NCBI RefSeq assembly: GCF_026151205.1
Contig: NC_087078.1
Coordinates: 720,175 to 784,174, forward strand
DNA from: Bolinopsis microptera
Taxonomy: Eukaryota; Ctenophora; Tentaculata; Lobata; Bolinopsidae
Direction: 5' to 3'
Length of the DNA: 64,000 nucleotides
Positions 1,301-63,007 of this stretch are shown in pieces. Under the pieces are notes generated by a model. The model had not been told where the DNA came from. It did not search any database and saw only the letters and a program-made list of their open reading frames with translations. Positions within the stretch are counted from its first letter, which is position 1. Every line of letters begins with the position of its first letter. Both the position numbers and the translations under genes were made by a program.

Positions 1301-4300
1301 TCATCGTTTGCGGAGAAAAGGGCCCTGAGGTTTGGTAATATTACATTTTGTAGGTAACACAAGCGATTGCAAAATATGATGGATCGTCTGCAAATCTGTA
1401 CAGAGGAACTATCATTACTGAGTACAACAGATAATAGTACAGTCATTATATAAGTTTAATAAGTTAAAAAGGTAGCAATAAATAAAAGGTAGCAATAGCT
1501 ATAATGTAGCAATAACTAAAAGGTAGCACTAACTAAAAGGTAGCAATAACTAAAAGGTAGCAATAACTAAAAGGTAGCAATAACTAAAAGATAGCAATAA
1601 CTAAAAGGTAGCAATAACTTACAGGTAGCAATAACTTAAAGGTAGCAATAACTAAAAGGTAGCAATAACTAAAAGGTAGCAATAACTAAAAGGTAGCAAT
1701 AACTAAAAGGTAGCAATAACTAAAAGGTGCTAGAAGTAACTCCTACCAATCCAGTGGACCCAGTTGTCTCTGATAATCCTCCTAGTGCCTCTCCCGTGGA
1801 ACATGGCCCACAAGTTTACCCCAGCTCGTATGTAAGGAGTTATGTTCGGGAGCAACTTAATGTACTTCTGCTTTTTAACCCTCACAAAATGTGTCATTTC
1901 TGCAAAATAATGTTACTTTTTGTTTTTGAGTTAGATGGATGCAGACTAACGGGGCCTCTCAAGCCCATATTACAGCTTGAAACTGACATAAACAGAAAAG
2001 CTGTTGCCTGTTAAAGCTGCTACCAGCTGTGAGCTGCTAAAAGTACAGCTACTATGATAGTAAGTTATAAATGGTGACAACACCATGACAACTAAACCTG
2101 TAGTACTGTGAAATGTTAAATTTAACAATGTAAGTGTATTTATACAATGTAAGTGTATAATTTATACAATGTAAGTGTAATTATACACTTACCTTCACAG
2201 TACGCCATCAGACTGCCTATATCCAACTCTTCTTCTATTTTAAGAGGGTGATTCTTCTTCTTATTCTTCTGATTCCTCGTGATTCCTTTGTATAATTTGT
2301 TGATACCAATTGTAAACTTAAACTCCAGCATTTGCGCGAGTTCTTGCATTATTGCTCGCTGTATCTAGAGAATATAGAGGTGTTATAATCAATCTTAAAA
2401 TCAGAAAGATAACGATATAATATAGTTATTGTGTTATTGTAATGTATTATCAAAGGCCATTTGCAAAATACAACAATTGGGAAAATCATTATTAAGCATG
2501 TCACAAGGCACCAACAAGTTTGATGAGTGTTTATAGCCGTTTATTTCACACAGTACCACTACTACTAGTACTACTAGTACTACTACTAGTACTACTGGTA
2601 CTACTACTAGTACTACTGGTACTACTACTACTAGTACTAGTAGTACTAGTACTAGTAGTACTACTATCATTACTAGTAGTACTAGTACTACTACTAGTAC
2701 TACTACTAGCTCAAACAGCTCAGTATGGGTATATCCAGCTACAAACCTTGATATCAACTGTGCAGGAGTTTTCTGGAGCTATTAAAGTGCCATCTTCTTT
2801 CATCTTGAATCCGATAAGTTGAGCTTTCACTGGATCCTTTTTCTTTGTAGTCAACGAACTGTAAATTATGTAGTGTGAGAATTTAGTTTTAACTATAATG
2901 AAGGGGTGATAGTTCTAGTTTAGATAGCATGACTATCCTGAATATCGAGACCGTAATGTTCTAGTTCCAAACCTTGAAATGCTGCATTTATTAAGGAGGT
3001 AATTTTCTAATTCCAAACCTTGAAATGCTGTATTTATTAAGGACCACAGTTGGTTGTTTGCCCAACGGTGTCGCGTTAGCTCCAGTAGCAAAGGCACTTT
3101 TCCCAGCAGCAGCAGGGCTCTGATCGAACCTGCTCTTTCTTTGAAACATAGTGGGATCCAACTTCTGCGTGACTACTTTTGCTTTCTTAGGTAGTGGTCC
3201 ACATTGGGCAGCTTTAGTCTGCATTACAGAATCTTCCACCTGAAGAGGAAGAGTTTATTACATATCAAATATTTTTATATTTTTACGTCAATAATATACA
3301 GTGCAGTGTCTGCATACAAATCATAAACCAATTGATCTGCAATGACACAGAATTTATTTATATAGTAGTTGTTTCGTTAACTCTCAAACGCATTAAGGCA
3401 TAAGAAGTTGTTATGTGAGAGCTGAGTAAGCACCAATCATTGTTTTACCTCCATCGTTTCAGTTTTGTCTGCCGCCATAGCTGATAGCCGATCTTGTAGG
3501 CTTTCTGGTTTTGCTGGCAAAACTCAAATTAATTATCATTAATTATCATATAGTAGTGTATCAGTAATGAAACTAAATTTGTACCTAATTTTATATGCTG
3601 ACTGAATGAGCTGAGTAGCCACTAGCCAGGTACTTTTAAATTACGTAAAGTAAATTGGACTGTCACCTGGTGGTAAACTTACATAACCTCAAATACAATC
3701 ATTTGGATTGAATTGAATTTCAAAAGTAAATAGCTGGTTAGAACACTAGAACAGCTCCACAAATTATTGTTGCATCTGTATAACCAGAATCCACGATTTC
3801 AAGTTGGCATGCTTTAACAGTAGTGTAATAAATATTAAATACTTCTTATGTTTGATTAGCTGTGAGTAATTAACAGAGTAATTATGATCACTATATCATA
3901 GACGACTGGTAAAGTTATTGATCTTTTAAGGAATTCTTTTTTGTAAACAATACCTGTAACATTGGGAGCAGATGGAATCTGATTCTGTCCAAAACTGTGA
4001 TTCATTGAGGATTCCATAGTTTGAAGGTATCCATCTGAATTGTAAACTGTGACATATTGGCATAATTATTGAGGCAGTTTAGCTGTTTAGCTTTATAAAA
4101 AAGCCAAACAATAGCAACCTCAAGAAAAGGTGTTGAGTTATCCGAATTGGAATTAACCGAATATATTGATTAGAGATAAGAAGGTAGCTGGTTTGACTAA
4201 AATATCACTTTTAAAACCAAACAATAAGGGGGGGGGTCGCTACACATTTGAAAAATGTCACTGTTTTACACTTTTTAAGGCTATTTTACGACCCCCCTCC

Positions 4301-4791
4301 CCCCCCCCCCCCCCCCCCCCAACAACACCACTTACCTATGGCCATTTCAGTTCCGTCAATGCCTCCTACTTGCTCATCCCTTTGCCTTTTTGTTCCCATT
4401 TCATTCTGGTTAATACAGAATTGCTGAGGTCCATCTTGAGTTATTGTATTGGTCCCATATCCAAACATTTGGGCCCCGAACTGTGGTGCAGATGGCGCAC
4501 CATATGGAAGCTGTCCAGGGATGAAATTTTGGGACAAACTAGGAGGATTCAAATGAGGAATGCCAGTCTGAAATTAATAATTCTAGAGTGAGCAATGAGT
4601 TCACAACTTGCAGAGAAATCACAAAATATATGTATCTATTTGGTAAATAGAAATTGCTTGAAAATAAAAAGTAAACAATTTACTACTAAAATAAATCTTC
4701 TTACCGGAACCACTGAGTTGGGTTGGATATTTCCAAGTTCAGCTGGATTAGGAGGATAAGGATTATAGCACGAGTTCCATTCACCAGACAT
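1301..4791 (-). CDS. Unrecognised eight-exon gene, ~354 aa, P/Q/N-rich N-terminus
   Basis: Exons inferred by splice sites and phase: 4791-4705, 4567-4336, 4034-3954, 3513-3449, 3239-3019, 2858-2747, 2364-2193, 1395-1301. All phases join, giving 1065 nt and a TGA stop. The ATG at 4791 begins MSGEWNSCYNPYPPNP; an in-frame ATG upstream (4827) is possible. The N-terminal ~110 residues are rich in P, Q, N and G, followed by a basic, nuclear-signal-like PLPKKAKVV. The C-terminal half looks folded, with DPVKAQLIGFKMKEDGTL and then IMQELAQMLEFKFTIGINKL. I do not recognise the family, and a nuclear role is only a guess. The last exon (1395-1301) rests on phase and splice signals alone. The donor of exon 3239-3019 is tandemly duplicated. 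Confidence 0.65.
1468..1726. repeat. 17-bp tandem array (AGGTAGCAATAACTAAA)
   Basis: About 15 near-identical 17-bp copies lie in what I model as the last intron of the minus-strand gene. On the + strand each unit carries AAAAG|GTAGC, an AG|GT junction. The array ends exactly at the AG before the open stretch at 1727. Confidence 0.9.
1727..1831 (+). other. Possible plus-strand coding exon, antisense to an intron
   Basis: The 105-base stretch is open, starts right after an AG and ends at TAT|GTAAGG, a good donor. It encodes a P/V/S-rich peptide (VLEVTPTNPVDPVVSDNPPS...). No other exon of such a gene was found, and it lies inside the last intron of the minus-strand gene. It may be chance. Confidence 0.2.
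2556..2709. repeat. (TAC/AGT)n microsatellite
   Basis: ACTACTAGT-type trinucleotide repeat in an intron of the minus-strand gene (between exons 2858-2747 and 2364-2193). Long V/L-rich frames on both strands are artefacts of the repeat. Confidence 0.95.
2955..3045 (-). repeat. Two-copy duplication of an exon end plus donor
   Basis: Read on the minus strand, the end of exon 3239-3019 (CCTTAATAAATACAGC..) with its donor CAAG|GTTTGGAA is followed ~50 bases downstream by a second near-identical copy. This gives two potential donors in series. Confidence 0.75.
4292..4320. repeat. Poly(C) tract
   Basis: A near-pure C run lies just inside the intron after exon 4567-4336. On the coding (minus) strand it is poly(G), close to the donor. 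Confidence 0.9.
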
Positions 4792-5102
4792 ATAGATTGA
4801 CCTGTAGATACAAGATTTATCAGTCAATTGAAGCCTGATAGAGGAACTTAGAAGTTACAACACATCACACAATAAATCAAACAGTTGAAAGATTGTGTCG
4901 ACACTCCTAGATCATATGAATGCTCAGGGAGTGTTTGTTGGATGGAGGCCAGAACTCAAGAAAACAACGATTTCAAGATAGCATACTGCTTGTTTTAAAA
5001 TCATAAGCTACAGCCTACAAAACACCAGTTTTCCCGCATCAATGAACATCTTATTTACTGCAAACTTCACTCCAGGATCCCAAATTAGCCTGGAGATTCA
5101 GT

Positions 5103-5674: not shown

Positions 5675-5756
5675 GATTCAGTCAAGGCTTCACCTTATAT
5701 TGGGGTTACTGATAAACTTTTAGGATGTAAAGAAAAGCTAAGTAATTATCAAAATA

Positions 5757-7540: not shown

Positions 7541-7549
7541 TTGACAAAA

Positions 7550-12232: not shown

Positions 12233-15200
12233 ATGATGATAGTTGATACTGTAAACATTTCAGCAGATTATATGCTGCATGATGAGAACATTATCGCCCA
12301 AATGGACCAGATTACCAAGGATATCGCCTGTAAATCACCTCTTGTAAGTGAACCTGAACCAGTGGAGAACCTGAAGCCGGAATACGTTCAGAACGAGGGG
12401 TTCCTAGCTAAAATAGAGGTTTTTAACTTATTTAATTAATTATCATTTCTCTGTATATTTGGTGTTTGATTTTAATATTCCCAATACAGGTTCCTCGCTA
12501 AAATTGAGGTTTTTAACTTATTTAATTAATTACTATTTCTCTGTATATTTGGTGTTTGATTTTAATATTCCCAATACAGGTTCCTCGCTAAAATAGAGGT
12601 TGTTAACTTATTTAATTAATTATTATTTCTCTGTATATTTGGTGTTTGATTTTAATATTCCCAATACAGGTTCCTCGCTAAAATTGAGGTCTTTAACTTA
12701 TTTAATTAATTACTATTTCTCTGTATATTTGGTGTTTGATTTTAATATTCCCAATACAGGTTCCTCGCTAAAATAGAGGTTGTTAACTTATTTAATTAAT
12801 TATTATTTCTCTGTATATCTGGTGTTTGATTTTCATATTCCCAAGATTAAAATATAACTGAATGAAACATTGTGTCATAAATGAATTTATGCAACCTATT
12901 TACATTACGTTAAAGCATATTTACAGTATGTGATCAGGTATTACTTTTTTATTTACCAGTCGACTGTTGTTATATTTAGTGTATCTGTTAGACGGGTACT
13001 ACAACCCTCACACTTAAGGCCCCCCCCCCCCCCCCCCCCGCCGGCACACTTAACCTCTCAGGGGTTTAGGAAGAGAAGGGGGCTCTATCTCTTAACCTCT
13101 ATCTCACTCTCAGGGGTGTAGGAAGAGGAGGGGGCTCTATCTCTTAACCTCTATCTCACTCTCAGGGGTGTAGGAAGAGGAGGGGGCTCTATCTCTTAAC
13201 CTCTATCTCACTCTCAGGGGTGTAGGGAGAGGAGGGGGCTCTATCTCTTAACCTCTATCTCACTCTCAGGGGTGTAGGAAGAGGAGGGGGCTCTATCTCT
13301 TAACCTCTATCTCACTCTCAGGGGTGTAGGGAGAGGAGGGGGCTCTATCTCTTAACCTCTATCTCACTCTCAGGGGTGTAGGGAGAGGAGGGGGCTCTAT
13401 CTATTAACCTCTATCTCACTCTCAGGGGTGTAGGGAGAGGAGGGGGCTCTATCTCTTAACCTCTATCTCACTCTCAGGGGTGTAGGGAGAGGAGGGGGCT
13501 CTATCTATTAACCTCTATCTCACTCTCAGGGGTGTAGGGAGAGGAGGGGGCTCTATCTCTTAACCTCTATCTCACTCTCAGGGGTGTAGGGAGAGGAGGG
13601 GGCTCTATCTCTTAACCTCTATCTCACTCTCAGGGGTTTAGGAAGAGGGGGGCTCTATCTCTTAACCTCTATCTCACTCTCAGGGGTGTAGGGAGAGGAG
13701 GGGGCTCTATCTCTTAACCTCTATCTCACTCTCAGGGGTGTAGGAAGAGGAGGGGGCTCTATCTCTTAACCTCTATCTCACTCTCAGGGGTGTAGGAAGA
13801 GGAGGGGTCAGGGGGCTCTATCTATTAACCTCTATCTCACTCTCAGGGGTGTAGGAAGAGGAGGGGGCTCTATCTCTTAACCTCTATCTCACTCTCAGGG
13901 GTGTAGGAAGAGGAGGGGGCTCTATCTCTTAACCTCTATCTCACTCTCAGGGGTGTGGGAAGAGGAGGGGGCTCTATCTCTTAACCTCTATCTCACTCTC
14001 AGGGGTGTAGGAAGAGGAGGGGGCTCTATCTCTTAACCTCTATCTCACTCTCAGGGGTGTAGGAAGAGGAGGGGGCTCTATCTCTTAACCTCTATCTCAG
14101 GGGTGTAGGAAAGGAGGGGGCTCTATCTCTTAACCTCTATCTCACTCTCAGGGGTGTAGGAAGAGGGGGGCTTTATCTCTTAACCTCTATCTCAGGGGTG
14201 TAGGAAGAGGGGGGCTTTATCTCTTAACCTCTATCTCAGGGGTGTAGGAAGAGGAGGGGGCTCTATCTCTTAACCTCTATCTCAGGGGTGTAGGAAGAGG
14301 GGGGGGCTCTATCTCTTAACCTCTATCTCAGGGGTGTAGGAAGAGGGGGGGCTCTATCTCTTAACCTCTATCTCAGGGGTGTAGGAAGAGGGGGGCTCTA
14401 TCTCTTAACCTCTATCTCAGGAGTGTAGGAAGAGGAGGGGGCTCTATCTCTTAACCTCTATCTCACTCTCAGGGGTGTAGGAAGAGGAGGGGGCTCTATC
14501 TCTTAACCTCTATCTCACTCTCAGGGGTGTAGGAAGAGGAGGGGCTCTATCTCTTAACCTCTATCTCACTCTCAGGGGTGTAGGAAGAGGAGGGGTCAGG
14601 GGGCTCTATCTCTTAACCTCTATCTCAGGAGTGTACGGAGAGGAGGGGGCTCTATCTCTTAACCTCTATCTCACTCTCAGGGGTGTAGGAAGAGGAGGGG
14701 GCTCTATCTCTTAACCTCTATCTCACTCTCAGGGGTGTAGGAAGAGGAGGGGCTCTATCTCTTAACCTCTATCTCACTCTCAGAGGTGTAGGAAGAGGAG
14801 GGGTCAGGGGGCTCTATCTATTAACCTCTATCTCACTCTCAGGGGTGTAGGAAGAGGAGGGGGCTCTATCTCTTAACCTCTATCTCACTCTCAGGGGTGT
14901 AGGAAGAGGAGGGGGCTCTATCTCTTAACCTCTATCTCACTCTCAGGGGTGTAGGAAGAGGAGGGGGCTCTATCTCTTAACCTCTATCTCACTCTCAGGG
15001 GTGTAGGAAGAGGAGGGGGCTCTATCTCTTAACCTCTATCTCACTCTCAGGGGTGTAGGAAGAGGAGGGGGCTCTATCTCTTAACCTCTATCTCAGGGGT
15101 GTAGGAAAGGAGGGGCTCTATCTCTTAACCTCTATCTCACTCTCAGGGGTGTAGGAAGAGGAGGGGGCTCTATCTCTTAACCTCTATCTCACTCTCAGGG

Positions 15201-46100: not shown

Positions 46101-49100
46101 AGCTGTGTAGAGACCGGTAACTGTCTTAATACCAGGTACCAGTCAAGTAGCGAGCTGTGTAGAGACCGGTAACTGTCTTAATACAGGGTACCAGTCAAGT
46201 AGCGAGCTGTGTAGAGACCGGTAACTGTCTTAATACCAGGTACCAGTCAAGTAGCGAGCTGTGTAGAGACCGGTAACTGTCTTAATACAGGTACGAGTCA
46301 AGTAGCGAGCTGTGTAGAGACCGGTAACTGTCTTAATACCAGGTACCAGTCAAGTAGCGAGCTGTGTAGAGACCGGTAACTGTCTTAATACCAGGTACCA
46401 GTCAAGTAGCGAGCTGTGTAGAGACCGGTAACTGTCTTAATACAGGTACCAGTCAAGTAGCGAGCTGTGTAGAGACCGGTAACTGTCTTAATACAGGGTA
46501 CCAGTCAAGTAGCGAGCTGTGTAGAGACCGGTAACTGTCTTAATACAGGGTACCAGTCAAGTAGCGAGCTGTGTAGAGACCGGTAACTGTCTTAATACAG
46601 GGTACGAGTCAAGTAGCGAGCTGTGTAGAGACCGGTAACTGTCTTAATACCAGGTACCAGTCAAGTAGCGAGCTGTGTAGAGACCGGTAACTGTCTTAAT
46701 ACCAGGTACCAGTCAAGTAGCGAGCTGTGTAGAGACCGGTAACTGTCTTAATACAGGGTACCAGTCAAGTAGCGAGCTGTGTAGAGACCGGTAACTGTCT
46801 TAATACAGGGTACCAGTCAAGTAGCGAGCTGTGTAGAGACCGGTAACTGTCTTAATACAGGGTACCAGTCAAGTAGCGAGCTGTGTAGAGACCGGTAACT
46901 GTCTTAATACCAGGTACCAGTCAAGTAGCGAGCTGTGTAGAGACCGGTAACTGTCTTAATACAGGTACCAGTCAAGTAGCGAGCTGTGTAGAGACCGGTA
47001 ACTGTCTTAATACCAGGTACCAGTCAAGTAGCGAGCTGTGTAGAGACCGGTAACTGTCTTAATACCAGGTACCAGTCAAGTAGCGAGCTGTGTAGAGACC
47101 GGTAACTGTCTTAATACAGGTACCAGTCAAGTAGCGAGCTGTGTAGAGACCGGTAACTGTCTTAATACCAGGTACCAGTCAAGTAGCGAGCTGTGTAGAG
47201 ACCGGTAACTGTCTTAATACAGGGTACCAGTCAAGTAGCGAGCTGTGTAGAGACCGGTAACTGTCTTAATACCAGGTACCAGTCAAGTAGCGAGCTGTGT
47301 AGAGACCGGTAACTGTCTTAATACCAGGTACCAGTCAAGTAGCGAGCTGTGTAGAGACCGGTAACTGTCTTAATACCAGGTACCAGTCAAGTAGCGAGCT
47401 GTGTAGAGACCGGTAACTGTCTTAATACCAGGTACCAGTCAAGTAGCGAGCTGTGTAGAGACCGGTAACTGTCTTAATACCAGGGTACCAGTCAAGTAGC
47501 GAGCTGTGTAGAGACCGGTAACTGTCTTAATACCAGGTACCAGTCAAGTAGCGAGCTGTGTAGAGACCGGTAACTGTCTTAATACCAGGTACCAGTCAAG
47601 TAGCGAGCTGTGTAGAGACCGGTAACTGTCTTAATACCAGGTACCAGTCAAGTAGCGAGCTGTGTAGAGACCGGTAACTGTCTTAATACCAGGTACCAGT
47701 CAAGTAGCGAGCTGTGTAGAGACCGGTAACTGTCTTAATACCAGGTACCAGTCAAGTAGCGAGCTGTGTAGAGACCGGTAACTGTCTTAATACCAGGTAC
47801 CAGTCAAGTAGCGAGCTGTGTAGAGACCGGTAACTGTCTTAATACCAGGTACCAGTCAAGTAGCGAGCTGTGTAGAGACCGGTAACTGTCTTAATACCAG
47901 GGTACCAGTCAAGTAGCGAGCTGTGTAGAGACCGGTAACTGTCTTAATACCAGGTACCAGTCAAGTAGCGAGCTGTGTAGAGACCGGTAACTGTCTTAAT
48001 ACCAGGTACCAGTCAAGTAGCGAGCTGTGTAGAGACCGGTAACTGTCTTAATACCAGGTACCAGTCAAGTAGCGAGCTGTGTAGAGACCGGTAACTGTCT
48101 TAATACCAGGTACCAGTCAAGTAGCGAGCTGTGTAGAGACCGGTAACTGTCTTAATACCAGGTACCAGTCAAGTAGCGAGCTGTGTAGAGACCGGTAACT
48201 GTCTTAATACCAGGTACCAGTCAAGTAGCGAGCTGTGTAGAGACCGGTAACTGTCTTAATACAGGTACCAGTCAAGTAGCGAGCTGTGTAGAGACCGGTA
48301 ACTGTCTTAATACCAGGTACCAGTCAAGTAGCGAGCTGTGTAGAGACCGGTAACTGTCTTAATACCAGGTACCAGTCAAGTAGCGAGCTGTGTAGAGACC
48401 GGTAACTGTCTTAATACCAGGTACCAGTCAAGTAGCGAGCTGTGTAGAGACCGGTAACTGTCTTAATACCAGGGTACCAGTCAAGTAGCGAGCTGTGTAG
48501 AGACCGGTAACTGTCTTAATACCAGGTACCAGTCAAGTAGCGAGCTGTGTAGAGACCGGTAACTGTCTTAATACCAGGTACCAGTCAAGTAGCGAGCTGT
48601 GTAGAGACCGGTAACTGTCTTAATACAGGGTACCAGTCAAGTAGCGAGCTGTGTAGAGACCGGTAACTGTCTTAATACCAGGTACCAGTCAAGTAGCGAG
48701 CTGTGTAGAGACCGGTAACTGTCTTAATACCAGGTACCAGTCAAGTAGCGAGCTGTGTAGAGACCGGTAACTGTCTTAATACCAGGTACCAGTCAAGTAG
48801 CGAGCTGTGTAGAGACCGGTAACTGTCTTAATACCAGGTACCAGTCAAGTAGCGAGCTGTGTAGAGACCGGTAACTGTCTTAATACCAGGTACCAGTCAA
48901 GTAGCGAGCTGTGTAGAGACCGGTAACTGTCTTAATACAGGTACCAGTCAAGTAGCGAGCTGTGTAGAGACCGGTAACTGTCTTAATACCAGGTACCAGT
49001 CAAGTAGCGAGCTGTGTAGAGACCGGTAACTGTCTTAATACCAGGTACCAGTCAAGTAGCGAGCTGTGTAGAGACCGGTAACTGTCTTAATACCAGGTAC

Positions 49101-52100
49101 CAGTCAAGTAGCGAGCTGTGTAGAGACCGGTAACTGTCTTAATACCAGGTACCAGTCAAGTAGCGAGCTGTGTAGAGACCGGTAACTGTCTTAATACCAG
49201 GTACCAGTCAAGTAGCGAGCTGTGTAGAGACCGGTAACTGTCTTAATACCAGGTACCAGTCAAGTAGCGAGCTGTGTAGAGACCGGTAACTGTCTTAATA
49301 CCAGGTACCAGTCAAGTAGCGAGCTGTGTAGAGACCGGTAACTGTCTTAATACCAGGTACCAGTCAAGTAGCGAGCTGTGTAGAGACCGGTAACTGTCTT
49401 AATACCAGGTACCAGTCAAGTAGCGAGCTGTGTAGAGACCGGTAACTGTCTTAATACCAGGGTACCAGTCAAGTAGCGAGCTGTGTAGAGACCGGTAACT
49501 GTCTTAATACCAGGTACCAGTCAAGTAGCGAGCTGTGTAGAGACCGGTAACTGTCTTAATACCAGGTACCAGTCAAGTAGCGAGCTGTGTAGAGACCGGT
49601 AACTGTCTTAATACCAGGTACCAGTCAAGTAGCGAGCTGTGTAGAGACCGGTAACTGTCTTAATACCAGGTACCAGTCAAGTAGCGAGCTGTGTAGAGAC
49701 CGGTAACTGTCTTAATACCAGGTACCAGTCAAGTAGCGAGCTGTGTAGAGACCGGTAACTGTCTTAATACCAGGTACCAGTCAAGTAGCGAGCTGTGTAG
49801 AGACCGGTAACTGTCTTAATACCAGGTACCAGTCAAGTAGCGAGCTGTGTAGAGACCGGTAACTGTCTTAATACCAGGTACCAGTCAAGTAGCGAGCTGT
49901 GTAGAGACCGGTAACTGTCTTAATACCAGGTACCAGTCAAGTAGCGAGCTGTGTAGAGACCGGTAACTGTCTTAATACCAGGTACCAGTCAAGTAGCGAG
50001 CTGTGTAGAGACCGGTAACTGTCTTAATACCAGGTACCAGTCAAGTAGCGAGCTGTGTAGAGACCGGTAACTGTCTTAATACCAGGTACCAGTCAAGTAG
50101 CGAGCTGTGTAGAGACCGGTAACTGTCTTAATACCAGGTACCAGTCAAGTAGCGAGCTGTGTAGAGACCGGTAACTGTCTTAATACCAGGTACCAGTCAA
50201 GTAGCGAGCTGTGTAGAGACCGGTAACTGTCTTAATACCAGGTACCAGTCAAGTAGCGAGCTGTGTAGAGACCGGTAACTGTCTTAATACCAGGTACCAG
50301 TCAAGTAGCGAGCTGTGTAGAGACCGGTAACTGTCTTAATACCAGGTACCAGTCAAGTAGCGAGCTGTGTAGAGACCGGTAACTGTCTTAATACCAGGTA
50401 CCAGTCAAGTAGCGAGCTGTGTAGAGACCGGTAACTGTCTTAATACCAGGTACCAGTCAAGTAGCGAGCTGTGTAGAGACCGGTAACTGTCTTAATACCA
50501 GGTACCAGTCAAGTAGCGAGCTGTGTAGAGACCGGTAACTGTCTTAATACCAGGTACAGTCAAGTAGCGAGCTGTGTAGAGACCGGTAACTGTCTTAATA
50601 CCAGGTACCAGTCAAGTAGCGAGCTGTGTAGAGACCGGTAACTGTCTTAATACCAGGTACCAGTCAAGTAGCGAGCTGTGTAGAGACCGGTAACTGTCTT
50701 AATACAGGTACCAGTCAAGTAGCGAGCTGTGTAGAGACCGGTAACTGTCTTAATACAGGTACCAGTCAAGTAGCGAGCTGTGTAGAGACCGGTAACTGTC
50801 TTAATACCAGGTACCAGTCAAGTAGCGAGCTGTGTAGAGACCGGTAACTGTCTTAATACCAGGTACCAGTCAAGTAGCGAGCTGTGTAGAGACCGGTAAC
50901 TGTCTTAATACCAGGTACCAGTCAAGTAGCGAGCTGTGTAGAGACCGGTAACTGTCTTAATACCAGGTACCAGTCAAGTAGCGAGCTGTGTAGAGACCGG
51001 TAACTGTCTTAATACCAGGGTACCAGTCAAGTAGCGAGCTGTGTAGAGACCGGTAACTGTCTTAATACCAGGTACCAGTCAAGTAGCGAGCTGTGTAGAG
51101 ACCGGTAACTGTCTTAATACCAGGTACCAGTCAAGTAGCGAGCTGTGTAGAGACCGGTAACTGTCTTAATACCAGGTACCAGTCAAGTAGCGAGCTGTGT
51201 AGAGACCGGTAACTGTCTTAATACCAGGTACCAGTCAAGTAGCGAGCTGTGTAGAGACCGGTAACTGTCTTAATACAGGTACCAGTCAAGTAGCGAGCTG
51301 TGTAGAGACCGGTAACTGTCTTAATACCAGGTACCAGTCAAGTAGCGAGCTGTGTAGAGACCGGTAACTGTCTTAATACCAGGTACCAGTCAAGTAGCGA
51401 GCTGTGTAGAGACCGGTAACTGTCTTAATACCAGGTACCAGTCAAGTAGCGAGCTGTGTAGAGACCGGTAACTGTCTTAATACCAGGTACCAGTCAAGTA
51501 GCGAGCTGTGTAGAGACCGGTAACTGTCTTAATACCAGGTACCAGTCAAGTAGCGAGCTGTGTAGAGACCGGTAACTGTCTTAATACCAGGTACCAGTCA
51601 AGTAGCGAGCTGTGTAGAGACCGGTAACTGTCTTAATACCAGGTACCAGTCAAGTAGCGAGCTGTGTAGAGACCGGTAACTGTCTTAATACCAGGTACCA
51701 GTCAAGTAGCGAGCTGTGTAGAGACCGGTAACTGTCTTAATACCAGGTACCAGTCAAGTAGCGAGCTGTGTAGAGACCGGTAACTGTCTTAATACCAGGT
51801 ACCAGTCAAGTAGCGAGCTGTGTAGAGACCGGTAACTGTCTTAATACCAGGTACCAGTCAAGTAGCGAGCTGTGTAGAGACCGGTAACTGTCTTAATACC
51901 AGGTACCAGTCAAGTAGCGAGCTGTGTAGAGACCGGTAACTGTCTTAATACAGGGTACGAGTCAAGTAGCGAGCTGTGTAGAGACCGGTAACTGTCTTAA
52001 TACAGGGTACCAGTCAAGTAGCGAGCTGTGTAGAGACCGGTAACTGTCTTAATACCAGGTACCAGTCAAGTAGCGAGCTGTGTAGAGACCGGTAACTGTC

Positions 52101-53949
52101 TTAATACCAGGTACCAGTCAAGTAGCGAGCTGTGTAGAGACCGGTAACTGTCTTAATACAGGGTACCAGTCAAGTAGCGAGCTGTGTAGAGACCGGTAAC
52201 TGTCTTAATACCAGGTACCAGTCAAGTAGCGAGCTGTGTAGAGACCGGTAACTGTCTTAATACCAGGTACCAGTCAAGTAGCGAGCTGTGTAGAGACCGG
52301 TAACTGTCTTAATACAGGGTACGAGTCAAGTAGCGAGCTGTGTAGAGACCGGTAACTGTCTTAATACCAGGTACCAGTCAAGTAGCGAGCTGTGTAGAGA
52401 CCGGTAACTGTCTTAATACAGGTACCAGTCAAGTAGCGAGCTGTGTAGAGACCGGTAACTGTCTTAATACCAGGTACCAGTCAAGTAGCGAGCTGTGTAG
52501 AGACCGGTAACTGTCTTAATACCAGGTACCAGTCAAGTAGCGAGCTGTGTAGAGACCGGTGGATAATATGGAGAATAAAAGATGATACGGTGGAACTGAG
52601 CGAGCTGTCTCTACATCTCAACCTCAGTGGGAATGGTCTCCGTCTCTACTTCCCTAACACTACGGTGCTGTCCCCAGTAAGTTCAAAACTAAATAGTTTC
52701 ACTTTCACTTTCACTTTCACTTTCTCCGTCTCTACTTCCCTAACACTACAGTGCTCTCCCCAGTAAGTTCAAAACTAAATAGTGCGCACGCGCATAGTTT
52801 ATCGTTTATGTGCATTGTGGACACTGTACAGGTATGGTACAGACTTTTAAGAGTGCCTTCTATAGAAATGTGGTAAAAGCTTACAACTGAAAAACAGGTT
52901 AAAGGCTTAATAAGTTATTGACACAATTTGATAAAGCGGAGATTGGAAATGGAAATCTTAACTGTAAGTTCAAATCAAAGTAGTGCACAGAGTTTATCAT
53001 TTTAAGGATTGTGGCCTGGTATGGTACAGACTTCACTATTTTAAGGAAATGAATTGACTATTTAGTTTATAGTCGGCCCTATAAAAACCTGGTAAAAACA
53101 GAAGGTTACACTTACAATAACAAAACAACTTAAAGGCTTAATCGGAAAGATGGCTTTCGTCACAATCTAATAAAGCAGAGATTGGAAATCTCAACTGCAA
53201 GTAGCGAGACTGCAAGTAAGCGAGATTGCTTGCAATTGCGCACAAATACTGAACTAACACCATATATAGCTAACTTCGTCCCACTGCAAATTGTGATCTT
53301 GCAAACGTCGACAGTTTGACGGGTTAAGTAACATACATATAATATCTGCTACATTGGTGCATTAAATCTATAAATATTAGTTAACTTCCCCGGCCCGGGT
53401 TACTGACTGCTAAACTTCTTAGATAATATTAGTTAACTTCCCCGGGTTACTGACTGCTAAACTACCCAGATAATGATAGTGGAGGAAGGACTGACTGTCA
53501 GTATCCTAATAGCTACAACAGCTTCAGTTCACAGGATCATCTGTCCTCACCCGTCTTCTGAGCAGTCTTGCTTTAACCTGGGAACTGTCAAAACCAACAC
53601 CGCCAGTGTGCTCGAGTAAGTGTCACCGGCTAGCGGGCTCTCGTTATTTTAGTTGTCATCTTGATACTAGAGGAAGCAACACTTAATAATGTCTAACGTA
53701 CACAATATCATATATTCTCTCAACTCTGGCACTGATAAGGATATAATAATGAACCTCTTCAGATCGATCGACACTACAGTTCTCCAAACTAAACACCATT
53801 TCTCCTACATCCCTCACGATGTAGCACCCTCCCTTGCCACCGCAGCTCTCACACAGATTGGAGCTGCAGTTTTTGCTTTCTCCTACCCCTCAGCTGATCT
53901 TAGACTTGTCACTCTGCCTCCTCTCGGTACTGATGCAGCTGTTCTACAG

Positions 53950-53990
<41 letters not shown>

Positions 53991-54007
53991 GTTAGTTAGT
54001 TAGTTAG

Positions 54008-54039
<32 letters not shown>

Positions 54040-54045
54040 TTTATT

Positions 54046-54088
<43 letters not shown>

Positions 54089-54089
54089 T

Positions 54090-54153
<64 letters not shown>

Positions 54154-54159
54154 TTTATT

Positions 54160-54192
<33 letters not shown>

Positions 54193-54232
54193 AAGTTAGT
54201 TAGTTACTTATTTAGTTAGGTTAGTTAGTTAT

Positions 54233-54312
<80 letters not shown>

Positions 54313-54355
54313 GTTAGTTAGTTAGTTAGTTAGGTTAGTTAGTTAGTTATTTATT

Positions 54356-54388
<33 letters not shown>

Positions 54389-54424
54389 AAGTTAGTTAGT
54401 TAGTTATTTAGTTAGGTTAGTTAT

Positions 54425-54460
<36 letters not shown>

Positions 54461-54481
54461 CTAGTTAGTTATTTAGTTATT

Positions 54482-54564
<83 letters not shown>

Positions 54565-57113
54565 ATAGACAGTTTTTGGGTTTTCCAAATAGTTTCTGAT
54601 TATTCTGATTTGCGACAAATGATATTGCACTGTTAGGATAAACGACGTTTCAAAGTAACAACTTCTTATTCATGCTCAAATTATTTGTTATATAGTAGTG
54701 TTGAAAGTATTAAAACTAGTTAGTTAATTAGTTAGTAAGTTTATCCAAAACGATATATCGAGAAATGTAAATGTTTTTTCTGATTTTACCACCACAACAC
54801 TTCAGACGGACCTACACCAAAGATCGCTGATGCAGAGTTTATGGTCGGGAGTAAGTCGCAGGTCCACTATGGTGGAGTCAGTGTCGGCCCCTCTGTCTCT
54901 CACAATGTCACAACTTGGTCCTGATATGCTCCTATTCTCGCTTTGCAAGTCAGTTTATTACTTTTATTTGTTTATTTAATTTGTTTTTCAATTATATTTA
55001 TTTATTTTTAACCAGTGTATTGTGTATTAATGTTATCTGCCAAAGGGACGTGAAACTGCGAGTGTGGTCTGTGAACAACAAGGATATTATGAACATGGAG
55101 GCGATACCCTGCAAAACAGATCTTAAGTTGCACGGAAATCATTCCTTGTGTTTCAAACCTGCTACTGCTGACTCAACTGCTATGATCGGCATGCACCTGT
55201 CATTTGTGGACGATAGCGTCTTTAGAATCTACACTGGTGAGGAATCCTTTTAGTTAGAGATTTTAGAGTGCTTATTTCTGAAGTGTGACCCAAATTCCAA
55301 AGTGACATATAATAGTTAAAACACACATAACCCCGGCAAGCGCAGGGATTATATTTCAATTTTTCCCGCGACGCGCGGGAAAAATTTATAATAATTTCGA
55401 GTGCGAAGCACGAGGGATTATTATGAAAATAACCCCGACGTGCTTTAGCACGAGGGGTTATTTTAATATAACTTAAGCGTGCCGGTGTTATGTGTTATAA
55501 ACCCCTCCGGTTTAGTGCTAGGACCAGCAATTTGACATTTTACTCTTAATTCTAGCTATATGAGATCAGTATGGAAAATATGAAATGGAATTGGGGACTA
55601 CCAAATAAATACAACTAAGGTACTATGACATTTGAAATTGGCGTTTAAATATCTAAACATTATTCCTCAGTCAGAACGTTGAATGAATATGAATATCGAT
55701 AAGGGGCGTCGAGTTAAGCCTGGCAAGCGATAAAAGGTGGAGCTAATAATGATATCGTGTCATGAAGTCCATCAAAGTAGACGACTATATATAATATAAT
55801 ACGTGGCTTATAACAAACACGACAAAATTAACCGGACAAAATCAAATGTAACCGTCGAGACAAGTTCTGGAACTGGTCCAATTAATGTAAGAGTTTAAGT
55901 AATGTAAGCAGTGTGCTGGAGTTTTGCCAGCGCCTGCAATTAGACCGATACGTAGATCAAGTGTATTAAATAGTTCTTACGTTAAGGCATAGGTCACGTG
56001 ACATTTTTTACCAATGCGCGTCGTAGTAGTTAGTCACGTGATACACGTCATCAAAACACGTGACAGTGCGCGGTTGAAATTCTCATGTAATATCAAAACA
56101 GAACAAATCTAGTTGAGCCAAATAACCGGGGCGGGATTATAGAAGCTGTGCCGGGGTTATTTATTCAGCGGGAAAAAACTAACAGCGGGAGCCGGGATTA
56201 TCAGAATCTATTTAGCGGGAGCCGGGATTATCAGAATCTTATTCTGACCCGGAGGGGTTTATAATATGATAAATATGATAATAAAAGTGCTGAATGTAAA
56301 TCAGTATAACTCAATTCCTTAAATCTGAGCATTTAAAATGTTATCAGCAAATACTCGCTACATTTCCAACTAAGCAATCTTGGTATACTCCCCAGTACTG
56401 TACAATAACGAACATTTCTCAGTCACTGCAGATAACTAACTAACTAACTAACTAACTAACTTATCTTGGTAAACTCCTCAGTCCTGTACAATAACGAACA
56501 ACTGAGCATGACCCTGCTGTATTACTGCTCTGGGTGGGACATGCCTCTCAAACATTTCTCAGTCACTGCAGATAAGATACTGGCTCTTCACGACGAGGCT
56601 GGAACTTCACGGTTAGTGTATAGTCCAGCTCTTTTGTACTTACATTAGTGCTCTTAAATATTAAGTTGAAATATCAAAAAATGTGGGGGTAGTATTTCTG
56701 AGACCATATCCTAGCCTAGTTTGTTGTTCAATGTTAATCTAACGATGTTCACGGTTAAATAATGCTAAGAACTGTAAGATAAGCTTCCCGGATCCCCTAA
56801 ATCTAACTACTTGCCAGAGTGTTGACACTAAATAACTAACTAACTAACTAAATCTAACTACCATACTTGCCAGAGTGTTGACACTAAATAACTAACTAAC
56901 TAACTAAATCTAACTACCATACTTGCCAGAGTGTTGACACTAAATAACTAACTAACTAACTAAATCTAACTACCATACTTGCCAGAGTGTTGACACTAAA
57001 TAACTAACTAACTAACTAAATCTAACTACCATACTTGCCAGAGTGTTGACACTAAATAACTAACTAACTAACTAAATCTAACTACCATACTACCCAGAGT
57101 GTTGACACTAAAT

Positions 57114-57157
<44 letters not shown>

Positions 57158-57158
57158 A

Positions 57159-57217
<59 letters not shown>

Positions 57218-57218
57218 A

Positions 57219-57257
<39 letters not shown>

Positions 57258-57351
57258 ATCTAACTACCATACTTGCCAGAGTGTTGACACTAAATAACTA
57301 ACTAACTAACTAAATCTAACTACCATACTACCCAGAGTGTTGACACTAAAT

Positions 57352-57423
<72 letters not shown>

Positions 57424-57461
57424 ATCTAACTACCATACTACCCAGAGTGTTGACACTAAAT

Positions 57462-57493
<32 letters not shown>

Positions 57494-57494
57494 A

Positions 57495-57533
<39 letters not shown>

Positions 57534-57558
57534 ATAACTAACTAACTAACTAACTAAA

Positions 57559-57605
<47 letters not shown>

Positions 57606-57699
57606 ATCTAACTACCATACTTGCCAGAGTGTTGACACTAAATAACTAACTAACTAACTAAATCTAACTACCATACTACCCAGAGTGTTGACACTAAAT

Positions 57700-57751
<52 letters not shown>

Positions 57752-57786
57752 ATAACTAACTAACTAACTAACTAAATAACTAACTT

Positions 57787-57819
<33 letters not shown>

Positions 57820-57858
57820 AATAAATAACTAACTAACTAACCTAACTAACTAACTAAC

Positions 57859-57906
<48 letters not shown>

Positions 57907-57927
57907 AATAACTAAATAACTAACTAG

Positions 57928-57967
<40 letters not shown>

Positions 57968-58057
57968 ATAACTAACTAACCTAACTAAATAAGTAACTAA
58001 CTAACTTACTAACTAACTAACTAACTAACTAACTAAATAACTAACTAACTAACTAAA

Positions 58058-58096
<39 letters not shown>

Positions 58097-58097
58097 A

Positions 58098-58132
<35 letters not shown>

Positions 58133-61100
58133 ATAACTAACTAACTAACTAACTAACTACCATACTACCCAGAGTGTTGACACTAAATAACTAACTAACT
58201 AACTAACTAACTAAATCTAACTACTTGCCAGAGTGTTGACACTAAAGTTCGGTAACTCTGAAAACGAGGGTAGCTGGGAGGAGGCTCAGATAATAGAACC
58301 CTCTGAATTAGACGAGGAAATATTTGATGACAAGGAATGTTTCGTTCAGTTTTGTCTGGGTGAATTCACAGAGAACACCATCTCTGCTGCTCTTGATAAA
58401 CTAGGGTTCGAGTTTGAAGAGGGAACTGTGGATGAAGCTCTTGACAACTTCATCCAGACACACGAAGCTATGGGTGATCTTGAAGAAACTCTCCCTGCAC
58501 TCTACAGCGAATGCCGCACATTCCACAATATTAACTCCTGTCCAGTGAGCATCTCAGATGGGATCCTAGTCATGGCTGGAGATCTCTCACTTCTCCTACC
58601 TAATAGCTCTGATTTCTACGTTAACGAGAACAGTGTGCTGATGGGAGCGTTTGTAAAGCTCACAGAGTTCATCCCAGCTACTGGATGGGAACTGTTACAG
58701 GTTTGTTTGTTTGGTACACCGGCCAATGTTTACAAAATCATATGATACATAACAATATAATTTTATTTAATATACGTGAATATGAAAATTGAAAATTATT
58801 ATGTAACCTTTTATGTTTATTCATTTAAAAAAACCAAAACAGGACAATTCGAGTGATAACTTGGTGGATATTGCTAGAGAGTTACTCAGTAACCACCTGA
58901 ACCCTGAGTGCGCGGCAGAGCTGGATGAACTGATCCTGTCTATGGAGAATGTACAGGAAGTGTTGGAGTCGGCTGTGGGAAGTATTGATAAGTACCCTGT
59001 CTCATCCCGTCAGCTCCCAACTCTCTTCAGGAGTGTTACTGGTTAGTGGTCTCTGGTATTTACTTTGTTAATAATTGAGCGATTATTGTTTTTTAAAATC
59101 AAAGTAACCTTTTAAAAGCACTTTCTTGTGAGGTTGCAATCCTAAACCACATGTTCTTTAACCCACATTTTCCCCTTGCAGGTACGGAATGTCTGATACG
59201 TGCTGTAGATACAGGAGTGTTTGACGCTCACAAGACATACGCTGTTTTGTTAGTGTGTCTAGTTTATATAGAGCAGGAGCAAGCAGGGGTGAGTGAGGAA
59301 ACCCAGGCTAAAATGAGAACCTCTCTTATACCCGGCTGTGTGCAGATAATGAACAGGTTAGGGCGGATTAAATAAACAAGTTGTATTAAGAGTAAGCTTG
59401 TTACAACAGTTGTGGTACGAATTAAACTGTATTTCAAATAATTAGCTCTTATAATATAATATGTATAATTGGTATCTTTAAATGAATAATGTATCTCCCT
59501 CAACTTCCCTCACCCTCCAGATTCAGTCTCCTCCAATGGGTCCTGTCCAGCTCAGTAGAAACCTCGCCAGACTACGATAACTTTGGTAACCTAAACATCT
59601 CGGAGGTAGAGAAGAAACCCAAAACAATCCTCCACCACTACCTCTCCTCCCGACACCCTCTTATTGAGTATAAGAGTCTGGAGGATATGAAGAAAACAGT
59701 GGTTGCTATTATCAATGCTATGTACCCTGGCTCTACGTTACTGGACCTGCCACAGTTTCTACTTTCATCCCAGTACTACCATCAGCTCAAGGTAAATACT
59801 CCTTCATAAAGGTAAATACTTATTAATTCAAAAACATAAACCAGGACACCCGCTCACAGCTCAGGACAGGTTTTATTTGATGCGGTTCATAAATAAATAT
59901 GTTATTTGAATAATTAACTGACTTATTTGACCCTATATATTAACCAAAACGATCACTAATCTAATGCGTTTATTTAATAAGTAATGACTTATAGTCCGCT
60001 AATAATATGTTAATCCATAGGAGTACTACACAAAGAGCGGGGACTGTTCAGCAGCGCTAAAACACATTGCTGCTCAAGCCTACGCTGCTACCGGAGAACA
60101 AGCTACTGCTGTGAAAATGTTTATCGGTGTTGCAAAAAACCTGGACATGAACAGTCCACTTCTCACAACTTTTATAGGTAGTAGAAATAGAAAACGCGAG
60201 AAACATAACTGATGCAGAAGTAGAAACACTTGATCTGAAAGATAAGAATAAGATAAGAATAACTACGAATGCGCGGCAGAAAGTAATTCTACTCACATAT
60301 TAATAAGCTATATTATAAGGTATAAAGTCCGGGGTTGTGTTATCAGTCTAAGCGACCATGTCAGTATTTTTTATTTTGCCAATACTGACAATGTTATTAA
60401 TGGTCATTAATGGTCATTAATGGTCATTAATGGTCATTAATGGTCAAAAAATTATATGGGTTGGGTTATCAGTCTGAACTTTGTGGACTATTAATCTTGA
60501 GGCTGTCTAATCTCCATATTATTATCAAAGTACTGCATTTAATATTTAGCATCAATATTATCATATCACATCTTGCTCACTGTGTTTCTAATGTCAGGTA
60601 ACCACATCTTGCTCACTGTATTTCTAATGTCAGGTAACCACATCTTGCTCACTTCTAATGTCAGGTAACCACATCTTGCTCACTGTATTTCTAATGTCAG
60701 GTAACCACATCTTGCTCACTGTATTTCTAATGTCAGGTAACCACATCTTGCTCACTGTATTTCTAATGTCAGGTAACCACATCTTGCTCACTGTATTTCT
60801 AATGTCAGGTAACCACATCTTGCTCACTTCTAATGTCAGGTAACCACATCTTGCTCACTGTATTTCTAATGTCAGGTAACCACATCTTGCTCACTTCTAA
60901 TGTCAGGTAACCACATCTTGCTCACTGTATTTCTAATGTCAGGTAATCACATCTTGCTCACTGTATTTCTAATGTCAGGTAACCACGTCTTGCTCACTGT
61001 ATTTCTAATGTCAGGTAATCACATCTTGCTCACTGTATTTCTAATGTCAGGTAACCACATCTTGCTCACTGTATTTCTAATGTCAGGTAACCACTAAACC

Positions 61101-62856
61101 ACATCTTGCTCACTTCTAATGTCAGGTAACCACATCTTGCTCACTGTATTTCTAATGTCAGGTAACCACATCTTGCTCACTTCTAATGTCAGGTAACCAC
61201 ATCTTGCTCACTGTATTTCTAATGTCAGGTAACCACATCTTGCTCACTGTATTTCTAATGTCAGGTAACCACATCTTGCTCACTTCTAATGTCAGGTAAC
61301 CACATCTTGCTCACTGTATTTCTAATGTCAGGTAACCACATCTTGCTCACTGTATTTCTAATGTCAGGTAACCACATCTTGCTCACTGTATTTCTAATGT
61401 CAGGTAACCACATCTTGCTCACTGTATTTCTAATGTCAGGTAACCACATCTTGCTCACTGTATTTCTAATGTCAGGTAACCACATCTTGCTCACTGTATT
61501 CTAATGTCAGGTAACCACATCTTGCTCACTGTATTTCTAATGTCAGGTAACCACATCTTGCTCACTGTATTTCTAATGTCAGGTAACCACATCTTGCTCA
61601 CTGTATTTCTAATGTCAGGTAACCACATCTTGCTCAGTGTGTTTCTAATGTCAGGTAACCACATCTTGCTCACTTCTAATGTCAGGTAACCACATCTTGC
61701 TCACTTCTAATGTCAGGTAACCACATCTTGCTCACTTCTAATCTCAGGTAACCACGACGGAGTTTCCACGAACCTCCAGTACATCACAAAGTGTATCTCC
61801 ATGTTGGAGAGAAGTGGTCTCTCCGCAGCCATCGTCTCCCTGGCAACCCAAGCTACACAGTTCTGTGAGAAAGAGCACCTGCCCCTGCTCCACTCGCTAG
61901 CTTTTAAACACGCTGTTGAGGCTGGAGATTATGATATGGCCTATAAAGCCCTGTCTTCTAATCCCTGTCCTTCTCAGAAACACGCATGTCTCAAGAGGTA
62001 TTTCAGTAGAGATAAAACTTACTGTGGTTCAAGTTTTATCCTTATTTAATAGTCATAACATTATAACTTACTTACTATATTAATTGGGTTTTGGCTTTAA
62101 TTCGACTGCGAGCTTTGTTTTTGGTTACAGCTACAGGTAACTGAGGATATTATATCGTGATGGGGTATTATCCAAGTGTTAAACTTGATCCCTTCTAGGT
62201 TCGTAGTGGTAATGGTAGAAGCAGGACAAGCAAAACGTCTAGTAAACTACCCGTACCACGGCTTTAAGGCAGAGGTAGTCAGTGTTCTGGAGTTTAAAGC
62301 GAGGAACTCAGACCTCAGACAGAATCAACTGAAGAGTTATTACAACCTGCTGTTTGCTTTCCATGTTCAGAACAAGGTTAGTCTCGTCTGAATAAATAAT
62401 AAATGATTAATAAATTATAATTAATTAATTAATAATAAATTATTAATAATCGCAATTTTAGTGTATTTTTAACTGACCCTAAGTTGTTTTTTTGAATCAA
62501 CGATATTGGTTTTGAATTGACGAAGTTTATATCGATTGTAACCATAAACCACAAAACTACACCTAAAATCACTACAACTACTACAATTAATCAAGCACAC
62601 TATTCTCTACATACACTATACATTCTCTATACATACACTATACATTCTCTATATATACACTATACATTATCTATACATACACTATACATTCTCTATACAT
62701 ACACTATTCTCTCAGATGTACCAGCACGCGGCAGCTACAGCCTACGAGCACGTGCTAAGGCTACAAAACGAGCTGCCTGGAGTCGCCTCCCTCCAGCAGC
62801 AACTACACGGCTACCTCACAGCTATCAGCTGCTTGGAACTGCTCAGGGAAAATGAT
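43143..62856 (+). CDS. NUP160: NUP160, nuclear pore Y-complex nucleoporin, 3'-incomplete (15 exons)
   Basis: Scaffold subunit of the NUP107-160 complex, needed for pore assembly and mRNA export. Exons: 43143-43270, 52553-52676, 53470-53615, 53673-53949, 54806-54948, 55046-55236, 56482-56611, 58232-58700, 58843-59041, 59182-59356, 59521-59791, 60021-60177, 61748-61997, 62199-62376, 62716-62856. All phases join into 993 codons; human NUP160 is about 1,430 residues, so the C-terminal third lies beyond the window. Landmarks of the N-terminal propeller are ELSELSLHLNLSGNGLRLYF, SVHRIICPHP and DVKLRVWS. In the helical part they are SMLERSGLSAAIVSLATQAT and SYYNLLFAFHVQNK. The N-terminus (ATG 43143) is shorter than in human, and an acceptor-like ACACAG just before it may mean an earlier exon. 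At least seven exon edges carry tandem duplications. Confidence 0.93.
43865..52552 (+). repeat. 8.7-kb, 52-bp array ending at NUP160 exon 2, each unit copying its acceptor
   Basis: About 160 copies of CCAGGTACCAGTCAAGTAGC + GAGCTGTGTAGAGACCGG + TAACTGTCTTAATA, with 51-53-bp variants. The last copy runs straight into exon 2 (GTGTAG|AGACCGGTGG). Every unit thus repeats the acceptor and eight exon bases, then reads ACCG|GTAACT, donor-like. Three early units (~43915, 44190, 44665) carry a longer ~125-bp insert beginning AACAAGTAACTGTACGGC, probably the ancestral form. Copies are very uniform, suggesting recent expansion or homogenisation. Confidence 0.97.
52640..52783 (+). repeat. Two-copy duplication of NUP160 exon 2 end plus donor
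   Basis: CTCCGTCTCTACTTCCCTAA...CCCCA|GTAAGTTC occurs at the true exon end (52640-52700) and again at 52723-52783 with two base changes. The two are separated by a (TTTCAC)n run. Both copies keep a strong GTAAGT donor. Confidence 0.9.
53366..53475 (+). repeat. Two-copy duplication of the NUP160 exon 3 acceptor
   Basis: ATATTAGTTAACTTCCCCGG...ACTGCTAAACT..(C/T)AG|ATAAT appears twice in tandem. The second copy is the acceptor used by exon 3 (CCCAG|ATAATG). The first ends TTCTTAG|ATAAT, a possible alternative acceptor ~50 bases upstream. Confidence 0.85.
53950..54564 (+). repeat. (TTAG)n array starting exactly at the NUP160 exon 4 donor
   Basis: Exon 4 ends CTACAG|GTTAGT and the tetranucleotide array begins with that donor, so GTTAGT donor-like words repeat for ~615 bases. 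Occasional TTAG|GTTAG joins supply AG|GT. Interruptions (TATTTATTTTAG, GTAAG, GCTAG) recur in reverse complement in the array of intron 7. Confidence 0.96.
55360..55462. other. Three consecutive hairpins
   Basis: Stems at 55360-55384 (TTTTTCCCGCG/CGCGGGAAAAA), 55389-55423 and 55429-55461 (AACCCC..CGTGCT/AGCACG.GGGGTT) follow each other almost without gap in NUP160 intron 6. They look like the sub-terminal part of a mobile element. Confidence 0.6.
55495..56264. mobile_element. 770-bp candidate MITE with perfect 16-bp TIR
   Basis: TTATAAACCCCTCCGG (55495-55510) and its exact reverse complement (56249-56264) bound a non-coding block in NUP160 intron 6. Near the right end a 27-bp AGCGGGAGCCGGGATTATCA-type unit is duplicated. 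Related CCCCGG/CCGGGG words continue to the left into the hairpin cluster, so the true element may start nearer 55320. Confidence 0.55.
56377..56460 (+). repeat. Internally deleted partial copy of NUP160 exon 7 plus (CTAA)n
   Basis: CTTGGTATACTCCCCAG|TACTGTACAATAACGAAC is joined directly to TTTCTCAGTCACTGCAGATA, which lies further inside exon 7. A short (CTAA)n run follows, then the true acceptor CTCCTCAG|TCCTGTACAATAACGAAC. It is an acceptor-plus-exon duplication that lost ~65 bases. Confidence 0.85.
56806..58231 (+). repeat. (CTAA)n array with ~12 copies of the NUP160 exon 8 acceptor
   Basis: A tetranucleotide array is interspersed with CTTGCCAG|AGTGTTGACACTAAA or CTACCCAG|AGTGTTGACAC units, in places at an exact 56-bp period. 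The final copy is the real acceptor and start of exon 8 (GCCAG|AGTGTTGACACTAAAG). Each unit repeats the acceptor and ~16 exon bases. Confidence 0.95.
60396..60447. repeat. 10-bp tandem repeat (AATGGTCATT)
   Basis: Five copies in NUP160 intron 12, ~150 bases before the 36-bp array. Confidence 0.9.
60585..61747 (+). repeat. 36-bp array (about 32 copies) ending at NUP160 exon 13, copying its acceptor
   Basis: The unit TTTCTAATGTCAGGTAACCA + CATCTTGCTCACTGTA has a 31-bp short variant. The last copy becomes the real acceptor TCTAATCTCAG|GTAACCACGACGG of exon 13. Each unit reads pyrimidine-rich tract, CAG, GTAACC: an acceptor immediately followed by a donor, the form of a recursive splice site. 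The 36-bp period is a multiple of three, which explains long repetitive reading frames here that are not genes. Confidence 0.96.
62590..62711 (+). repeat. ~22-bp repeat next to the NUP160 exon 15 acceptor
   Basis: About five copies of ACACTATACATTCTCTATAC merge into the pyrimidine tract ACACTATTCTCTCAG|ATG of exon 15. The units lack the AG. Confidence 0.8.
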
Positions 62857-62879
62857 GTGAGTTTATTATTATTACTGGT

Positions 62880-63007
62880 AACTTAGTAACCTAGTAACCT
62901 AGTAACCCAGTAACCCAGTAACCTAGTAACCTAGTAACCTAGATATCTCACAGTTATCAGCTGCTTAGAACTTCTCAGGAAAATGATGTGAGTTTATTAT
63001 TACTGGT
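62880..63007 (+). repeat. (GTAACCTA)n run, then a second copy of the exon 15 end plus donor
   Basis: Immediately after exon 15, 9-10-base GTAACCTA units repeat. From 62946 a copy of the exon end follows (CTCACAGTTATCAGCTGCTT ... AAAATGAT|GTGAGTTTATTATTACTGG) with a few substitutions. Two near-identical donors result ~140 bases apart. Confidence 0.88.

Follow-up and report, generated by a model that had tools for sequence, protein, structure and literature searches.

The window, a 64,000-nucleotide stretch within a 264.65 Mb, 232-contig assembly of Bolinopsis microptera, carries an otubain-like gene (PDB match to OTUB1, E 1e-47), a NUP160 gene (E 3e-34 to solved NUP160 chains) and a predicted gene on the minus strand, for whose protein no Pfam match was found. 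DNA straddling the exon ends of these genes is copied from two to many times into the adjoining intron (Table 1). Exon borders were predicted from homology, reading phase and GT-AG signals. The 14 NUP160 exons join free of stops and with GT-AG borders, with the exon 4 acceptor placed at 53673, a shift of 2 bp.

Table 1. Positions of border-spanning repeats and related features in the window
Feature	Positions	Strand	Description
Minus-strand predicted gene, donor 3018/3019	2953..3043	-	46 bp x2; 25 exon bp
Otubain-like donor array, exon 12264-12418	12399..12844	+	90 bp x5; ~20 exon bp, 5' splice site and intron
Otubain-like acceptor array, border 35904, exon 35905-36073	35486..35915	+	~41 bp x10 with poly-C; 11 exon bp
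NUP160 exons 2-15 (14 modelled)	52553..62856	+	predicted exons continue past the window
NUP160 exon 2 acceptor (52552) array	44032..52560	+	52 bp x164; 8 exon bp; unit gtgtag/AGACCGGT
NUP160 exon 2 donor (52676) duplication	52637..52783	+	2 copies, 86 bp apart; ~40 exon bp
NUP160 exon 3 acceptor (53469)	53376..53474	+	2 diverged copies, 47 bp apart; ~5 exon bp
GTTA microsatellite from NUP160 exon 4 donor (53949)	53950..54564	+	low complexity; no border-spanning unit
NUP160 exon 7 acceptor (56481)	56376..56499	+	copy 86 bp upstream; ~18 exon bp
NUP160 exon 8 acceptor (58231) array	56808..58246	+	56-bp unit mixed with CTAA repeats; 15 exon bp
NUP160 exon 13 acceptor (61747)	60567..61755	+	36 bp x33; 8 exon bp (cag/GTAACCAC)
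NUP160 exon 15 donor (62856)	62811..63011	+	second copy 131 bp downstream; ~45 exon bp

Repeats across exon borders

A preliminary description of the window named 11 exon edges at which a tandem copy holds the splice site plus some exon bases. Ten of these were found to do so, the exception being NUP160 exon 4, and the copy numbers given there, 2 to about 160, agree with the 2 to 164 found. The duplications were also said to land precisely on the borders. This does not hold, as the exon overlaps scatter, with breakpoints from about 5 to 75 bp away from the border among the spanning cases of the window and its flanks. Both border types are affected: of 24 spanning events, 13 are at donors and 11 at acceptors.

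In NUP160, the upstream copy at exon 7 has its ~18 exon bp fused to sequence from farther along that exon, and an 8-bp minisatellite sits between the two copies at the exon 15 donor. The exon 15 acceptor (62715), which was not among the edges first named, is also spanned, by an adjacent array. The 90-bp otubain unit meets a stop when read through and, by eye, also closes on an acceptor-like cag. An otubain intron is mostly filled by a different array (52 bp x132, 13055-19570), whose unit holds an acceptor-like stretch, cttaacctctatctcag, and which touches no exon known here. Two long single-exon open reading frames, 24408-25868 and 29200-30645, lie inside the span of the otubain-like gene and presumably resemble dolichol kinase and cytochrome P450, respectively; elsewhere the window has sequence that looks like a GH31 glucosidase (all names from translations).

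Tandem repeats detected with TRF make up 22.5% of the 314 kb analysed. Within the window, a 17-bp x15 array carrying AAAAG/GTAGC (1467-1728) adjoins a candidate open reading frame, and two 178-bp satellite arrays (32154-33882) of opposite orientation meet near 32930, as judged by eye. A palindrome-like motif, GTTACCATGGTAAC, which we take to be RFX X-box-like, recurs in this or a close form in 12 of 313 arrays with mostly unlike units, two in the window (27246-27296 and 35369-35391) and the others in the flanks (window coordinates -30842, 90418, 215656, 220549, 238534, 239266, 239533, 240821, 246067 and 247911). Counted over both strands of the 314 kb, and with array copies included, TTACCATRG is present 105 times, whereas base shuffles give 4.

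Spanned borders are also found beyond the genes first described. Within the 200 kb downstream lies a ribonucleotide reductase gene, with a Pfam barrel domain matched over the full profile (E 8e-220) and 18 exons forming one open frame with GT-AG at every junction. Arrays span three of its donors (72863, 82931 and 90423) and two of its acceptors (95142 and 97212). Further spanned borders are at 117869, in a predicted chain that combines EF-hand-like and HMG-box parts, and at 253246 and 253432, in a coiled-coil gene; a YIF1 chain is spanned at 200315 by eye, a case that is outside all counts (window coordinates throughout). One further gene presumably resembles MIA3, and has no Pfam match above the cut-off. 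In a striated-type myosin gene (PDB match), two adjacent similar stretches at about 880-1346 of locus L038 match the same motor segment, this doubled segment looking like mutually exclusive exons. The myosin match does not point to a particular phylum, and a search of the assembly for COX1 gave no match.

That existing introns are being lengthened, as had been proposed, agrees with signs of recent tandem growth: a single 31-bp array accounts for 4.2 kb of a 4.4-kb ribonucleotide reductase intron, and a 44-bp array has nine copies that are 100% identical. That the process is ongoing is suggested by this identity. The accompanying proposal, that the frame is kept whichever copy of the site is spliced, is not supported. 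The repeat distances of the ten confirmed window cases (about 90, 41, 52, 86, 47, 86, 56, 36, 131 and 46 bp) are not multiples of three in eight, only 90 and 36 bp being so, and the 90-bp unit holds the stop noted above. Judged from reading frames, in general only the exon-nearest copy would yield the original protein.

Comparison with chance placement

The main null model places duplications uniformly in repeat-collapsed introns, and so allows for short introns. A spanning event is defined as at least 5 exon bases inside a 30-bp match with up to 6 edits. The counts leave out introns over transposon-like open frames, low-complexity windows and exons with poor support. With all genes included, uniform placement predicts 10.4 spanned borders out of 237, and 25 were observed (P 5e-5); most genes counted lie in a single 314-kb stretch, and events within one gene are not independent. 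NUP160 and otubain, genes picked for their repeats, have 9 of 35 tested borders spanned versus 1.8 expected, a count that excludes 52552, where the upstream intron is unmodelled, and includes 62715. Outside these two genes, with the minus-strand gene also excluded, 15 of 196 borders are spanned versus 8.2 expected (P 0.015), some of the 15 events being marginal (those at 89170 and 223979 and the chaperonin one are few-base runs at the border). This outside set includes four chaperonin genes on other contigs (1/58 spanned, 0.2 expected; 5 events) and the myosin gene (1/24 spanned, 0.9 expected; 14 events), which contribute little to it. Before the myosin gene joined the set, the counts were 24 versus 9.6 over 214 borders for all genes, and 14 versus 7.3 over 172 (P 0.011) for the outside set.

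The outside set was not assembled blind. Its gene list was drawn up with exons and arrays already seen side by side, and ribonucleotide reductase entered after its arrays had drawn notice. The myosin locus was picked for a segment matched twice, and the four chaperonin loci were taken from a family search for several separate matches, other loci being left out.

In 19 of the 21 gene sets, median intron length falls between 126 and 671 bp. Outside the genes first described, the ten introns with a spanned border measure 134-569 bp after repeat collapse. Because collapsed introns are this short, a randomly placed unit of tens of bp will often straddle a border; chance straddling is thus common, and a fair null is weaker evidence against chance than a naive one. 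Outside the genes first described the excess is only about two-fold, and the claim that the pattern could not be chance is too strong, since the outside set was not picked blind and earlier tests were mixed.

Several such border tests were run, their results are mixed, and the P values are uncorrected for choice among them. TRF arrays alone give 10 spanning cases versus 5.4 expected in 86 introns. Among 98 introns outside the genes first described, 21 TRF array edges fall between -4 and +20 bp from a border, versus 11.1 expected (P 0.0015), and there is no excess deeper in the intron (8 versus 9.1 at 20-40 bp, 18 versus 23.6 at 40-100 bp) or 5-20 bp inside the exon (4 versus 3.5). Edges at least 5 bp inside the exon are in slight excess in these introns (10 versus 5.7, P 0.04). 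When only units of at least 15 bp are taken, border edges number 12 versus 6.3 (P 0.012) and those reaching at least 5 bp into the exon 9 versus 5.4 (P 0.07). In 100 introns predicted by a gene finder, first trained on NUP160 and other window exons, TRF arrays give 10 versus 7.0 expected (P 0.16), or 10 versus 5.4 with units of at least 20 bp (P 0.045). An ungapped 30-bp test, which the array at the NUP160 exon 8 acceptor escaped, finds 6/33 donors and 9/35 acceptors in hand-checked genes versus ~3.6% of control positions, and a non-significant 6/122 in gene-finder introns. A gapped test finds 10/35 in NUP160 and otubain (1.8 expected) and 4/35 in ribonucleotide reductase (0.9 expected, P 0.012), but only 4/124 (4.3 expected) and 3/59 (2.0 expected) in gene-finder introns outside the hand-checked genes.

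Origin of the duplications

The account that appears to fit best, and that is considered reasonably probable, is pervasive microhomology-mediated tandem duplication followed by expansion, with straddling of borders tolerated, rather than a machine directed to splice sites. In this view, segments of about 10-200 bp would be duplicated in tandem throughout the genome and then gain further copies. The duplications would begin where short microhomologies occur, as happens in end-joining or replication-template switching. Where a duplicate straddles a border, the copy nearest the exon would keep the original exon and splice site. Selection would spare this copy, so that the change is tolerated. The extra copies would turn into intron, perhaps growing by unequal exchange or slippage, and copies other than the exon-nearest would have to be bypassed or their products lost. 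Microhomology of at least 2 bp is found in 19 of 29 perfect young arrays (66%) versus 18% expected, in a set that covers arrays anywhere, includes some simple-sequence-like ones, and may be biased by a TRF preference for longer microhomology. These 29, with a junction overlap of at most 12 bp, were kept from 38 perfect few-copy arrays, nine with at least 13 bp being left out; just 2 of the 38 are at tested borders (56808 and 90418). At 253432, ACGG is common to exon and intron at the breakpoints, and at ribonucleotide reductase 72863 there are two extra bases at the junction (both by eye). The breakpoints thus look like those of ordinary end-joining or template-switching duplication, and not like a cut at the splice site. 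A roughly two-fold border excess is left unexplained by this account.

That excess is what would be expected if the borders were true hotspots, at which damage tied to transcription or splicing (R-loops, nucleosome edges, RNA-templated repair) starts duplication and introns grow from their ends. The five-fold excess in NUP160 and otubain and the gathering of array edges within 20 bp of borders, and not farther, also point this way. However, the breakpoints have no fixed position, edges at -20 to -4 are not enriched, and gene-finder introns outside the hand-checked genes show counts near expectation in the gapped test, so this reading is held only tentatively and seems rather unlikely. A mechanism tied to splicing, such as R-loops or RNA-templated repair, had been suggested at the outset; the border excess is in its favour, with nothing positive beyond it. 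The broader proposition, that borders are duplication hotspots genome-wide, with duplicates at about a tenth of splice sites, and that a process linked to transcription or splicing extends introns from their ends in an animal other than a lancelet, is judged unlikely.

The arrays could instead be remnants from the birth of introns through tandem genomic duplication of exon sequence that contains AGGT. Donor units do hold the donor GT with its exon flank, and the 90-bp otubain unit ends in the acceptor-like cag. However, intron birth predicts identical sequence at both intron ends, and among the introns with spanning events only NUP160 intron 2 is hit at both (52676 and 53469), where the duplicated sequences differ. 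By eye, donor-side and acceptor-side sequences that are copies of each other were not found in NUP160 intron 2 or the first otubain intron; the remaining introns were checked for matching ends only via the list of spanning events. Such an origin is very improbable here. Errors in gene models or assembly, with exon borders misplaced or repeats mis-assembled, might be suspected where borders are predicted from sequence and long arrays are hard to assemble. They are likewise very improbable, as ribonucleotide reductase keeps one frame and GT-AG junctions through all its exons with a full domain match, the NUP160 exons are stop-free after a single acceptor was moved, and the two-copy cases are independent of long-array assembly.

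The border-spanning repeats may be compared with the "mirages" of amphioxus. These are minisatellites across exon-intron borders of Adh3, the globins BflGb6 and BflGb9, troponin C and PGBD5. Their units, about 10-160 bp long, lie at donors or acceptors and include the splice site and exon bases (PMC3087553, PMC3902484, in the portions consulted). The same portions report that mirages leave regular splicing undisturbed and are unstable in length, both in the germline and somatically, and propose a role in intron gain (PMC3087553, PMC3902484). As far as those portions describe them, the likeness is one of defining anatomy: units here also span borders, ten in the window and others outside, and donors and acceptors are both affected, with splicing judged here from open reading frame and phase alone. 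High copy identity within the one assembly analysed bears on length instability only indirectly. Whereas mirages are reported there in a handful of lancelet genes, several genes with up to 164 copies and a placement null are described here. The border-spanning repeats are a real feature and, by their anatomy, of the same kind as the amphioxus mirages, with a modest, unexplained border excess.

Rogers is said to have described intron gain by tandem genomic duplication in 1989. This route to new introns is treated in PMC3443670 and PMC4974935 (seen in part). Tandem duplication of sequence holding AG/GT is shared with it; however, in that model, as given in the parts consulted, a new intron is made with matching ends, whereas here growth appears to occur at one end of introns already in place. 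Human introns derived from tandem arrays were reportedly described by Zhuo et al. in 2007. Internal tandem repeats are reported to alter human gene structure (PMC2812944, seen in part), and the likeness to such human studies, compared by titles and the start of an abstract, is that repeats bear on gene or intron structure. In the literature searched, which covers few subscription journals and includes sources available in part, no precedent of this kind was recognised outside amphioxus, the human study PMC2812944 being near in subject.

If common, border-straddling duplication would be a simple route to longer introns and spare splice sites, and would offer a natural setting in which to test the spliceosome's choice between identical sites. 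In the portions consulted, the amphioxus cases are described gene by gene, and the B. microptera genome may suffice for a statistical test.
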